From: Thioalkalivibrio sp.
GTDB taxonomy: Bacteria; Pseudomonadota; Gammaproteobacteria; Ectothiorhodospirales; Ectothiorhodospiraceae
DNA: 34,799 nucleotides
Reading direction: 5' to 3'
Assembly: GCA_007116035.1 (NCBI GenBank)
Contig: SKJG01000152.1
Span: forward strand, 1 to 34,799
The notes beneath the pieces were generated by a model that saw only the letters and a program-made list of their open reading frames with translations, was not told where the DNA came from and did not search any database. The number at the start of each line of letters is the position of its first letter. Positions within the stretch are counted from its first letter, which is position 1. Made by a program: the position numbers and the translations under genes. Shown piece by piece: positions 26,460-31,193 of the stretch.

Positions 26460-27284
26460 ATGGCCGTCTACGCGGTAGGTGACCTTCAGGGCTGTCTCGC
26501 GCCCCTCGAGCGGCTGCTGGAACACGCGCGCTTCGACCCCGCCCGCGACAGGCTGTGGCTGGTTGGCGATCTGGTGAACCGTGGACCGGATTCCGGCAAC
26601 TGCCTACGCTTTGTCCACGACCTCGGGTCTTCTGCAGTCACCGTGCTCGGCAATCACGACCTGCATCTGCTGGCCACCGCGGCGGGGCTCCGCCAACCCC
26701 GCCCGAAGGACACCCTCGAGGAGGTCCTGCGGCGTCCGGACGCCGAAGCGCTCCTCGAGTGGCTGGCGGCGCGACCGCTGGTGCATCACGACGCAACGCT
26801 CGGCTGGACCCTGGTCCACGCCGGGATTCCCCCACAGTGGGATCTCGAGCGGGCGTCCACCGAGGCCCGGGCGGTCGAGCAAGTGCTGCAGGATCCGCAA
26901 CGGCGCAACGAGTTCCTCGCGCGGATGTATGGCAACAGTCCCGACCGATGGGACGATGCCCTGAAGGGCGTGGACCGCCTGCGCTACACCGTGAATGCCC
27001 TCACCCGCATGCGTTTCCTTCGCAAGGACGGCGGACTGGACCTGGAGGAAAGTGGACCACCCGGGTCTGTGTCCTCCCGGTTGAGCCCGTGGTTCGAGGT
27101 GCGCAAACGGCGCATGGGCGGCCAACCGATCGTGTTCGGGCACTGGTCCGCGCTCGGATACCGGCGCGGCACCGACTGGCTGTCGCTGGACAGCGGCTGC
27201 GTCTGGGGCCGGGACCTGACCCTGGTGCGCCTGGACCCGGCGACGCCCGAAGAGCGAACCCTCTGGCAGCAGCCCTGCCGCTGA
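26460..27284 (+). CDS. apaH: diadenosine tetraphosphatase (symmetrical)
   Basis: This 274-residue calcineurin-like phosphoesterase splits Ap4A into two ADP and can also remove Np4 RNA caps. Metal-site motifs are GDLQGC at residues 7-12, GDLVNRGPDS, LGNHDLHLL and LVHAGIPPQWD, in the expected order. YTVNALTRMRFL and VFGHWSALG are ApaH-specific. The ATG at 26460 gives MAVYAVGDLQG as in other ApaH proteins, but the ribosome site before it is weak. It ends the lptD operon and converges with the Met-rich gene. Confidence 0.96.
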   Translation: MAVYAVGDLQGCLAPLERLLEHARFDPARDRLWLVGDLVNRGPDSGNCLRFVHDLGSSAVTVLGNHDLHLLATAAGLRQPRPKDTLEEVLRRPDAEALLEWLAARPLVHHDATLGWTLVHAGIPPQWDLERASTEARAVEQVLQDPQRRNEFLARMYGNSPDRWDDALKGVDRLRYTVNALTRMRFLRKDGGLDLEESGPPGSVSSRLSPWFEVRKRRMGGQPIVFGHWSALGYRRGTDWLSLDSGCVWGRDLTLVRLDPATPEERTLWQQPCR

Positions 27285-29636: not shown

Positions 29637-29738
29637 CTTCGACGCACCCGGGAGTGGATTCATCGAGGCGCGCGCTCGGGCCGGAGCGTGCGATACTCGC
29701 GCGGTGCGCTTTCGTTCCCGACCTGCTCCCGAGAAATC

Positions 29739-31193
29739 ATGGCGATCATCGAACTGGTGCTGTTCCTGGTGTGGGTCAACTTTCTCCCGTTCGTGGCCCA
29801 GTTGCTCATGGGGGATCGCCTGGGTCGGTCCGTGGACGGCGGACTGTGCTGGCCCGACGGGCGGCCGCTGCTGGGGCCGCACAAGACCTGGCGAGGGCTC
29901 GCGGCGGGCGTGCTGGCGGGGGCCGTGGCAGCGCCCCTGCTCGACCTGAGCTGGAGCGCCGGCGCGCTGGCGGGGGCGCTGGCGATGATGGGCGATCTGG
30001 CGACCAGCTTCGCCAAACGACGTCTGAGTCAACCCAGTGGCACCCCCAATGCCGGCCTCGATCAGGCACTGGAGGGGGCGCTGCCGTTACTGGTCCTGGT
30101 CCCAGCCATGGATCTGGGGCTCATCGAGGCGCTCGTGGGCCTTGCGATCTTCATTCCCTTGACCCATGCCGGATCGCGCTTCTGGGCCTTCATCCTGTCG
30201 CCTCGCGCGGACGTTGATTACCCACGCGTGATTCGCTCGACCACGCGTTTGCGCGAGTGGCGGGCCTGCCACTCGCCGCTGGCCCGCTGGCAACACTGGT
30301 TCAACTTCGAGAACTACGTGTACTACCGGGTCTTCATGACCTCGGTTTTCAAGGCGCTGGGTTGGTACGCGCAAGGCGTGCACAACACGCTTGGCGTGAC
30401 GGTCCGTGAGCACACCTTCTACTTCGACGATCTGCCCCCGGCCTTCGAAGGCTATCGGGTACTCCTGCTGACCGATCTGCACCTGGACGGTCTGCCCGGG
30501 CTCACGGACGCCATGATTCGGCAGGTCCAGGCGCATCCGGTGGATCTGTGCGTGATGGGCGGGGACGTACGCATGGAAATGTACGGTCCTACAGCGCCCG
30601 CAGTGCGGGACCTTCGGCGGCTACTGGCCAATGTTTGCACGCGCGACGGCGTCTACGGGGTGCTGGGCAATCATGACTGCATCGAGATGCTGCCCGAGTT
30701 CGAGGAAGCCGGCATTACCATGCTGGTCAACGACGCCCAAGCCATTCAACGGGGCGGGTCGGAACTCTGGCTGGTGGGCGTGGACGATCCGCACTATTAC
30801 CAGTGTCACGATCTGCCGCTGGCGTTTCGTGGCGTCCCTGCCCAGGGTTTCAAGATCTTTCTCGCACATTCCCCAGAGGTCTTCCGGGAGGCTGCTGCCC
30901 ACGGCGCGCAGCTCTACCTCTGCGGTCACACCCACGGCGGACAAATATGCCTGCCGCGCCTGGGTCCGGTATTCACGCATAGTCGTGCGCCCCGCTACAC
31001 GGCCGCAGGACCCTGGTGTTACGCAGGCATGCAAGGGTATACCAGCCGTGGCGCCGGGGCTTCCGGCATTCCGCTGCGCTTCAATTGCCCCGGTGAGATC
31101 CCGCTCATCGTGCTGCGGCGCTCAACTGCTGGAGCGAGTTCCGAGGGCGTTACCTTAGACCCGTGCCCGCAGGCTCCGACCCAGGCATCCTGA
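29739..31193 (+). CDS. fusion: CarS-like membrane CDP-lipid synthase domain plus metallophosphoesterase
   Basis: The uninterrupted 484-residue product has two parts. Residues 1-155 are polytopic and match the CDP-archaeol synthase (CarS, PF01864) pattern: DGG, LLGPHKTWRG at 44-53, MGDLATSFAKRRL at 84-96, and P-x(4)-LDQ at 103-109. Residues 225-460 are a YkuE-like metallophosphoesterase: DLHLDG with Asp246 and His248, GGD at 274-276, GNHD at 310-313, AHSPE with His377, and GHTHGGQ at 396-402. The linker (157-224) contains an aromatic NFENYVYYRVF stretch. CarS activates a phospholipid precursor with CTP; whether this bacterial version does so is unknown. The ATG at 29739 follows GAGAA. The flavoprotein gene ends 102 bp upstream. 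Confidence 0.8.
   Translation: MAIIELVLFLVWVNFLPFVAQLLMGDRLGRSVDGGLCWPDGRPLLGPHKTWRGLAAGVLAGAVAAPLLDLSWSAGALAGALAMMGDLATSFAKRRLSQPSGTPNAGLDQALEGALPLLVLVPAMDLGLIEALVGLAIFIPLTHAGSRFWAFILSPRADVDYPRVIRSTTRLREWRACHSPLARWQHWFNFENYVYYRVFMTSVFKALGWYAQGVHNTLGVTVREHTFYFDDLPPAFEGYRVLLLTDLHLDGLPGLTDAMIRQVQAHPVDLCVMGGDVRMEMYGPTAPAVRDLRRLLANVCTRDGVYGVLGNHDCIEMLPEFEEAGITMLVNDAQAIQRGGSELWLVGVDDPHYYQCHDLPLAFRGVPAQGFKIFLAHSPEVFREAAAHGAQLYLCGHTHGGQICLPRLGPVFTHSRAPRYTAAGPWCYAGMQGYTSRGAGASGIPLRFNCPGEIPLIVLRRSTAGASSEGVTLDPCPQAPTQAS

Follow-up and report, generated by a model that had tools for sequence, protein, structure and literature searches.

The window analyzed here, a 34,799-nucleotide stretch from Thioalkalivibrio sp. 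(contig SKJG01000152.1, assembly GCA_007116035.1), carries at positions 29739–31193 of its forward strand a gene of 484 codons plus stop in which a CarS-like domain is followed, in a single unbroken frame, by a YaeI/LpxG-like calcineurin-like phosphoesterase domain. The frame is open from a GTG at 29688, and an ATG lies at 29739. Residues 3–154 match Pfam family PF01864 (CarS-like; E 8.5e-13, 49.1 bits against a cut-off of 22) and residues 240–400 match PF00149 (Metallophos; E 1.9e-7, 32.1 bits against 21.5), while PF01148, the CdsA family, stays below its cut-off (15.5 bits against 24, E 0.016). Compared with PDB sequences, the protein has a sole match at E ≤1, namely 5guf, a cytidine diphosphate (CDP)-archaeol synthase (E 2.5e-8). 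The more specific NCBIfam models are matched below their equivalog cut-offs: the phosphoesterase half is closest to YaeI (PRK11340, NF008460; E 2.1e-26, 93 bits against 188), the CDP-archaeol synthase model NF003114 scores 70.2 bits against 148 (E 1.9e-19), and LpxG (NF033458) scores 46.1 bits against 350 (E 3.9e-12). One stand-alone gammaproteobacterial CarS-like protein reaches 82.1 of the 148 bits of NF003114, and one stand-alone phosphoesterase matches the LpxG model at E 1.3e-18, far under its 350-bit cut-off.

The CarS-like intramembrane cytidylyltransferase domain spans residues 1–154 (29739–30200; this and all following features of the gene lie on the forward strand) and is predicted, by homology to the archaeal ApCarS, to be N-out/C-in. 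In an alignment of 57 fusions, its motifs G46-x-x-K-T-x-x-G53 (29874–29897; G46, K49, T50, and G53) and G85-D-x-x-x-S-F-x-K-R-R95 (29991–30023; G85, D86, S90, K93, R94, and R95) are invariant at the residues listed, all of which are present in the 5guf alignment; in the third motif, L107-D-Q109 (30057–30065), D108 is invariant, L107 and Q109 are conserved in at least 90% of the fusions, and 5guf likewise has LDQ. Altogether 16 residues of the CarS half are invariant, of which 14 (D33, D40, G46, K49, T50, G53, G85, D86, S90, K93, R94, R95, G101, and D108) are identical in the 5guf alignment; P17 falls outside that alignment and P116 is aligned with G. Residues 155–235 (30201–30443) form a linker and juxtamembrane segment (FNFENYVYYR...) that can be aligned with stand-alone phosphoesterases from about residue 187. 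The phosphoesterase domain follows at residues 236–463 (30444–31127), as delimited by Pfam, NCBIfam, fold, and a 19-row alignment including 14 stand-alone phosphoesterases. Its metal site comprises D246-x-H248 (30474–30482), D276 within GGD (30564–30566), G310-N-H-D313 (30666–30677), H377 (30867–30869), and G396-H-T-H-G-G-Q402 (30924–30944), in which D246, H248, D276, N311, H312, D313, H377, H397, and H399 are invariant both in the 57 fusions and in the 19-row set. Judged by these conserved residues, both halves appear catalytically competent.

An AlphaFold2 model built from a 57-row alignment of fusion proteins (mean predicted local distance difference test score 84.2, with residues 155–172 below 50; predicted template modeling score 0.66) agrees with these assignments, although the mutual placement of the two domains in it is not taken as established. 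Residues 1–149 superpose on ApCarS (5guf) with Z 15.8 and a root-mean-square deviation of 2.5 Å over 142 of 158 residues at 35% identity, and Foldseek also matches the CarS fold (E 4.2e-7). Residues 234–462 adopt a calcineurin-like phosphoesterase fold, with Z of 14–17 to Mre11, GpdQ, Rv0805, and others. From the Foldseek and VIA-align lists for this half, which are filled by Mre11, nucleotidases, and purple acid phosphatases, the fold alone was taken, and a sequence search of the phosphoesterase profile against solved structures gave no match at E 0.001. The original prediction, made from the DNA letters and translations, had named both domains, and the Pfam matches, the 5guf fold, and the intact metal-site residues bear it out; a significant PF01864 match, whose absence it had held would refute it, is plainly present. 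Its motifs LLGPHKTWRG and GDLATSFAKRRL are exact, while the third, given as P-x(4)-LDQ, reads P-x(3)-LDQ. It had also allowed for a frameshift separating the halves in the source genome, but the same fusion recurs in 56 other full-length loci (41–69% identity) and in 59 of 192 genomes of another class, which makes a frameshift or assembly artefact very unlikely, a judgment based on this recurrence rather than on the sequencing reads themselves.

The CarS-like half might instead serve the phosphoesterase as a membrane anchor or lipid sensor, its nucleotidyltransferase role lost or changed, and the modest identity to ApCarS (35%) and the score below the CarS equivalog cut-off speak for such a change. 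We consider this very improbable, since 14 of the 16 invariant residues of this half are shared with 5guf, and since stand-alone CarS-like proteins persist in 17 gammaproteobacterial genomes that lack the phosphoesterase, four of which hold on the same contig a CDP-alcohol phosphotransferase of the A3 clade described below.

GTDB species genomes were scanned, yielding 79 loci. Frames with both domains number 72 among the loci examined, a few duplicates included: 11 assigned to Gammaproteobacteria and 61 others, titled mostly Desulfobulbaceae or Deltaproteobacteria. Matches turned up in 5 of 30 genomes from the genus of the window, and two of these five are truncated by contig ends. In the class of Desulfopila aestuarii (G403, locus L053), the phosphoesterase profile matches 63 of 192 genomes, and for 59 of these the long frame concerned also matches CarS. 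The four not counted as fused are G521 (a stand-alone frame without a CarS match), G475 (a 500-residue frame without a PF01864 match), G533 (two frames on one contig), and G567 (at a contig edge). PF01864 matches occur more widely in this class (91 of 192 genomes), including CarS-like frames of 230 and 335 residues without a phosphoesterase (G577 and G431). Among 14 named control genomes, PF01864 matched six, four of them archaea, and neither E. coli nor B. subtilis. Two contigs of metagenome-assembled genomes carry the CarS and phosphoesterase halves in different, overlapping frames (L070:5995-7397 and L072:5986-7391), either a natural split or an assembly error, and were kept as separate frames; one genome that has the fusion also has a stand-alone phosphoesterase (G404:C41:26272-27213, a 317-residue frame), so that both forms can coexist. 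In a CarS tree of 79 of 115 rows, which sampled every third of the 61 non-gammaproteobacterial fusions plus five chosen ones, and whose bootstrap had not settled and root is arbitrary, 41 stand-alone rows from Gammaproteobacteria group in one clade (100/99) and 11 gammaproteobacterial fusions in another (98/63), a pattern compatible with one fusion event.

The two domains are also partners when encoded separately. Of 369 gammaproteobacterial genomes, 64 encode a CarS-like protein, after hand curation, and 54 a member of the phosphoesterase subfamily. The two coincide in 47 genomes; 17 have just CarS, seven just the phosphoesterase, and 298 neither (Fisher p 2e-37). By family, CarS occurs in 41, the phosphoesterase in 31, and both in 29 of 181 families read from labels (p ~1e-21); both values overstate the case, as the sampled genomes are related and the CarS curation, made after both searches were seen, was not blind. 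In that curation, 34 of 98 genomes with PF01864 matches were dropped by hand as CdsA cross-hits or doubtful, on the basis of a frame length of about 265–375 residues and a profile range mostly within 42–161 (G258 and G282 start at 13 and 8); G273, with a frame of 423 residues and a range of 42–172, was dropped too, its locus L116 being unmatched by the CarS profile. The phosphoesterase count keeps 54 of 61 genomes, those at E <1e-70, where the scores show a gap. The genes lie close together on one contig in 34 of the 47 genomes with both, are fused in five, and are on different contigs in eight; 33 of the 34 close pairs are convergent (tail to tail) and one is divergent. Named plasmid records gave a CarS-like gene in three at E 1e-5. 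On Methylobacterium nodulans pMNOD02 and Bosea sp. pB32-1 the two genes converge, under the annotations "metallophosphoesterase" and "CDP-archaeol synthase". A Bradyrhizobium plasmid with the phosphoesterase has no CarS match within 4 kb of it. The pairing of CarS and phosphoesterase, fused or adjacent, is thus far above chance, and a partnership is strongly supported. Moreover, that the pair occurs fused, convergent, and divergent, and also in Alphaproteobacteria, suggests that it has been selected repeatedly, though the genomes are not independent. The idea in the original prediction that both halves serve one pathway, or one lipid, is strongly supported by this recurrence; its view of CarS as an oddity in a gammaproteobacterium is not supported, given a count of 64 genomes in 369.

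In the literature, CarS figures chiefly as an enzyme of archaeal lipids that contributes to maintaining the "lipid divide"; according to a review, it strongly prefers unsaturated archaeal substrates and failed to complement an E. coli cdsA mutant (PMC9385802). For bacteria that carry archaeal-type lipid genes, another study lists CarS as one of two genes undetected there (PMC7852524). The bacterial family resembles archaeal CarS (ApCarS, 5GUF; PF01864) in the fold and invariant residues described above, and departs from it in being fused to or paired with a phosphoesterase, in falling below the NCBIfam equivalog cut-off, and in occurring in hosts with a CdsA of their own. PF01148 is matched above its cut-off in all 23 genomes searched, including that of the window (G000:C144, E 2.3e-55), which rules out the CarS half as a replacement for CdsA; since CdsA is there already, the CarS half probably has a task other than the bulk supply of CDP-diacylglycerol.

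A third lipid enzyme recurs beside the pair in other genomes. A gene of about 180 residues with a CDP-alcohol phosphotransferase motif lies near the fusion, mostly adjoining it, in 12 of 87 loci, and all four neighboring phosphotransferases scanned with Pfam matched PF01066 (one A4-type, three A3-type). The A4 profile, built from neighbors of the fusion, matches 48 of the 192 genomes of the Desulfopila class; the phosphoesterase accompanies it in 37 of these, where 15.8 would be expected (p 2e-13). For 22 of these 37 genomes the A4 gene directly adjoins the fusion on the same strand, 15 times upstream and seven times downstream. Amongst the 369 gammaproteobacterial genomes, the A3 clade is found in 28, of which 12 are CarS-positive (p 8.7e-4), and in six of these (G044, G146, G155, G167, G375, and G387) the A3 and CarS genes share a contig and are near each other; in G387 and G155 the A3 phosphotransferase, CarS, and phosphoesterase genes all lie together. 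None of the four scanned neighbors reaches the PgsA cut-off (TIGR00560, 109.1 bits; scores of 39.6, 32.6, 64.7, and 62.2). In a phosphotransferase tree, A3 and A4 both fall outside a clade (98/93) of 18 rows labeled PgsA, a label assigned to the best PF01066 matches. This tree under-samples the third phosphotransferases, as only 11 of 20 extra regions passed a filter on length and motif; two long rows make its deep joins unsure, and one "extra" row is the same gene as the L055 neighbor. The best solved-structure match of both the A3 and the A4 profile is S. aureus PgsA, a likeness that is compatible with a phosphorylated acceptor. The genome of the window holds four PF01066 genes, none assigned to the route proposed below. 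Two of them were considered as partners and set aside: C36, which is uninformative as 29 of 30 genus genomes have some match to it (27 at E <1e-50), and C130, matched at E <1e-60 in 23 of the 30, including all five with the fusion, which is weak and not claimed.

ApCarS has five membrane helices and a cytoplasmic domain formed of two loops, according to the review (PMC9385802). An odd number of helices with the loops inside places the C-terminus of the CarS half in the cytosol, and by this analogy we infer that the phosphoesterase half is cytosolic, on the same side as the CarS active site. In the 57 fusions the linker has a 19-residue hydropathy maximum of 1.40, and in 14 stand-alone phosphoesterases the maximum over approximately the first 110 residues is 1.03, with no hydropathic membrane helix near the N-terminus. 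Hydropathy is a weak test of topology here: the window protein shows three peaks above 1.4 for its five CarS helices, and low linker hydropathy therefore does not exclude a membrane segment. The original prediction had likened this half to YkuE; B. subtilis YkuE is exported by the Tat pathway, while the phosphoesterase half of the fusion is predicted to be cytosolic instead.

The reading we tentatively prefer makes the fusion an inner-membrane enzyme with two activities. It would belong to an uncharacterised phospholipid route of bacteria, comparable to CdsA, PgsA, and phosphatidylglycerophosphate (PGP) phosphatase in series. A route of the CdsA–PgsA–Pgp type likewise combines three activities, those of activator, CDP-alcohol phosphotransferase, and phosphoesterase. 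At an active site facing the cytosol, the CarS-like half would charge a membrane lipid phosphate by means of cytidine triphosphate (CTP), giving a CDP-lipid; the phosphotransferase, encoded beside the pair in other genomes and presumably unlinked in that of the window, would exchange cytidine monophosphate (CMP) for a phosphorylated alcohol such as glycerol 3-phosphate; and the phosphoesterase half, on the cytosolic face, would remove the terminal phosphate to give the finished lipid. With a phospho-alcohol as acceptor, as in the PgsA reaction, the route would need a phosphatase to finish, a role that a cytosolic, membrane-facing phosphoesterase fused to the activator would fit. In this scheme the substrates and the type of acceptor are inferred, and so are the sequence of reactions, the action of the phosphoesterase after transfer, and the phosphotransferase that serves this genome. 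The proposed logic of CTP activation, CDP-alcohol phosphotransfer, and phosphate removal is that of the familiar pathway through CdsA, PgsA, and PgpA/B/C, from which the system differs in its CarS-type activator, in phosphotransferases that lie outside the PgsA clade, and in a calcineurin-like phosphatase, the known Pgp phosphatases having other folds. Within one literature collection, we found no paper that links CarS with a metallophosphoesterase and none that pairs a PGP phosphatase with one. Known enzyme families are here arranged in a new way.

Several observations weigh against this route. CarS occurs without the phosphoesterase in 17 of 64 gammaproteobacterial genomes, and the phosphoesterase without CarS in seven of 54; a Variovorax plasmid record with a CarS-like gene has no such phosphoesterase within 3 kb; neighboring pairs are mostly convergent and so do not form one operon; and the Fisher values are inflated, as noted above. 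As to the third enzyme, 11 of the 48 A4 genomes lack the phosphoesterase, none of the 11 having a PF01864 match, 16 of the 28 A3 genomes lack CarS, and the genome of the window has no A3 phosphotransferase at E 1e-18, A4 not having been searched for there. Serine transferases are the next solved matches of the A3 profile, and the best curated model is the cardiolipin synthase ClsA for three of the four scanned neighbors and PgsA for one, all far below cut-off. A non-phosphorylated acceptor would leave no phosphate for the phosphoesterase to remove. That ClsA is the best model for three of the four weakens the route and strengthens its main rival, in which the phosphoesterase half is a CDP-lipid pyrophosphatase, LpxG-like in chemistry and similar in role to a CDP-diacylglycerol hydrolase, that returns the CarS product to CMP and lipid phosphate and so sets the level of CDP-lipid.

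Such turnover, which we still regard as unlikely, has a precedent that also counts against the route we prefer. LpxG, the Chlamydia uridine diphosphate (UDP)-2,3-diacylglucosamine pyrophosphatase and the closest characterised lipid phosphoesterase identified here, is a membrane-associated calcineurin-like enzyme with D-x-H, GNHD, and GHxH motifs and cleaves the pyrophosphate of a nucleotide-linked lipid (PMC4807358); a nucleotide-linked lipid is likewise the substrate that turnover would propose for the fusion. The weak LpxG matches of the window protein and of the stand-alone phosphoesterase, far below cut-off, point the same way, as does the tighter co-occurrence of CarS with the phosphoesterase (47 gammaproteobacterial genomes) than with the A3 phosphotransferase (12). 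LpxG has no synthase domain, however, and joining a synthase in one protein to an enzyme that hydrolyzes what it makes would set up a futile cycle unless regulated; turnover also leaves the recurrent CDP-alcohol phosphotransferase neighbor unexplained. The suggestion in the original prediction that a CDP-lipid is made and then hydrolyzed or exchanged is, for this reason, less economical than the three-enzyme route to which that neighbor points, and is kept here as a rival. Less probable again is a role in substrate supply or acceptor processing, where the phosphoesterase would prepare or limit the substrate and might, for example, cut a phosphodiester or pyrophosphate lipid, e.g. a polyprenyl diphosphate, to a monophosphate that the CarS half then activates. 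The fold is common to diesterases such as GpdQ and Rv0805, and the gene with an EcKL/APH kinase domain that follows CarS in L123 suggests that other substrate-processing partners may exist; among ten neighboring proteins annotated by Pfam, no prenyl or polyprenyl gene was found, a weak objection as most neighbor clusters are unannotated.

The immediate surroundings of the window fusion are a pyridine-nucleotide oxidoreductase upstream and a tRNA-Pro downstream, and nothing lipid-related was recognized adjoining it. Ten frames of the window scanned by Pfam, three of them without a family, included no further archaeal-lipid gene, in line with what the original prediction had remarked, a scan that did not extend to a genome-wide search for GGGP or DGGGP synthase. 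Clustering of neighbors by longest frame picked antisense frames in loci rich in guanine and cytosine (an 11-locus cluster lay antisense over the fusion itself), and our conclusions thus rest on profile searches. A second calcineurin-like phosphoesterase gene (PF00149) at 26460–27281 of the window, forward strand, is seemingly unrelated to the fusion; from its place after surA and lptD we take it to be, perhaps, ApaH. Elsewhere, CarS-like domains occur in other contexts. In L130:1836-2900 (reverse strand) a PpiC-type rotamase domain precedes a CarS-like domain in one 355-residue frame, either another fusion or an assembly join; in the related L134 a rotamase-like gene, recognized by eye, and CarS are separate neighbors. 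In L086:1417-2865 (reverse strand) a CarS-like domain ends a 483-residue frame whose first 339 residues lack a Pfam match, possibly an over-long frame opposite a phosphotransferase gene. In two related genomes a kinase-like gene directly follows a stand-alone CarS (L123:2133-3104, forward; L122:4874-5860, reverse), with the phosphoesterase on another contig; the EcKL/APH assignment comes from a Pfam scan of the L123 copy only, and its product may make a phospho-alcohol or a lipid phosphate.

Overall, a CarS family present in 41 sampled gammaproteobacterial families, in 29 of them with one phosphoesterase subfamily and in checked genomes that also have CdsA, poses the concrete, testable questions of which lipid a bacterial CarS activates and whether there is an unassigned lipid headgroup pathway. 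The same data suggest what an unnamed branch of the YaeI-like phosphoesterases may do, and they warn that a bacterial gene annotated "CDP-archaeol synthase" should not be taken as a sign of archaeal lipids. The recurring pair, often accompanied by a third lipid enzyme, points to an uncharacterised bacterial way to make a membrane lipid. More speculatively, and with somewhat more doubt than conviction, Proteobacteria and the sulfate-reducing relatives of Desulfopila may widely carry, beside CdsA, a second, archaeal-type headgroup pathway of a CarS-like activator, a dedicated CDP-alcohol phosphotransferase, and a calcineurin-like lipid phosphatase. Its product would be a membrane lipid, or a class of lipids built on an unusual core, to which no genes have been assigned.

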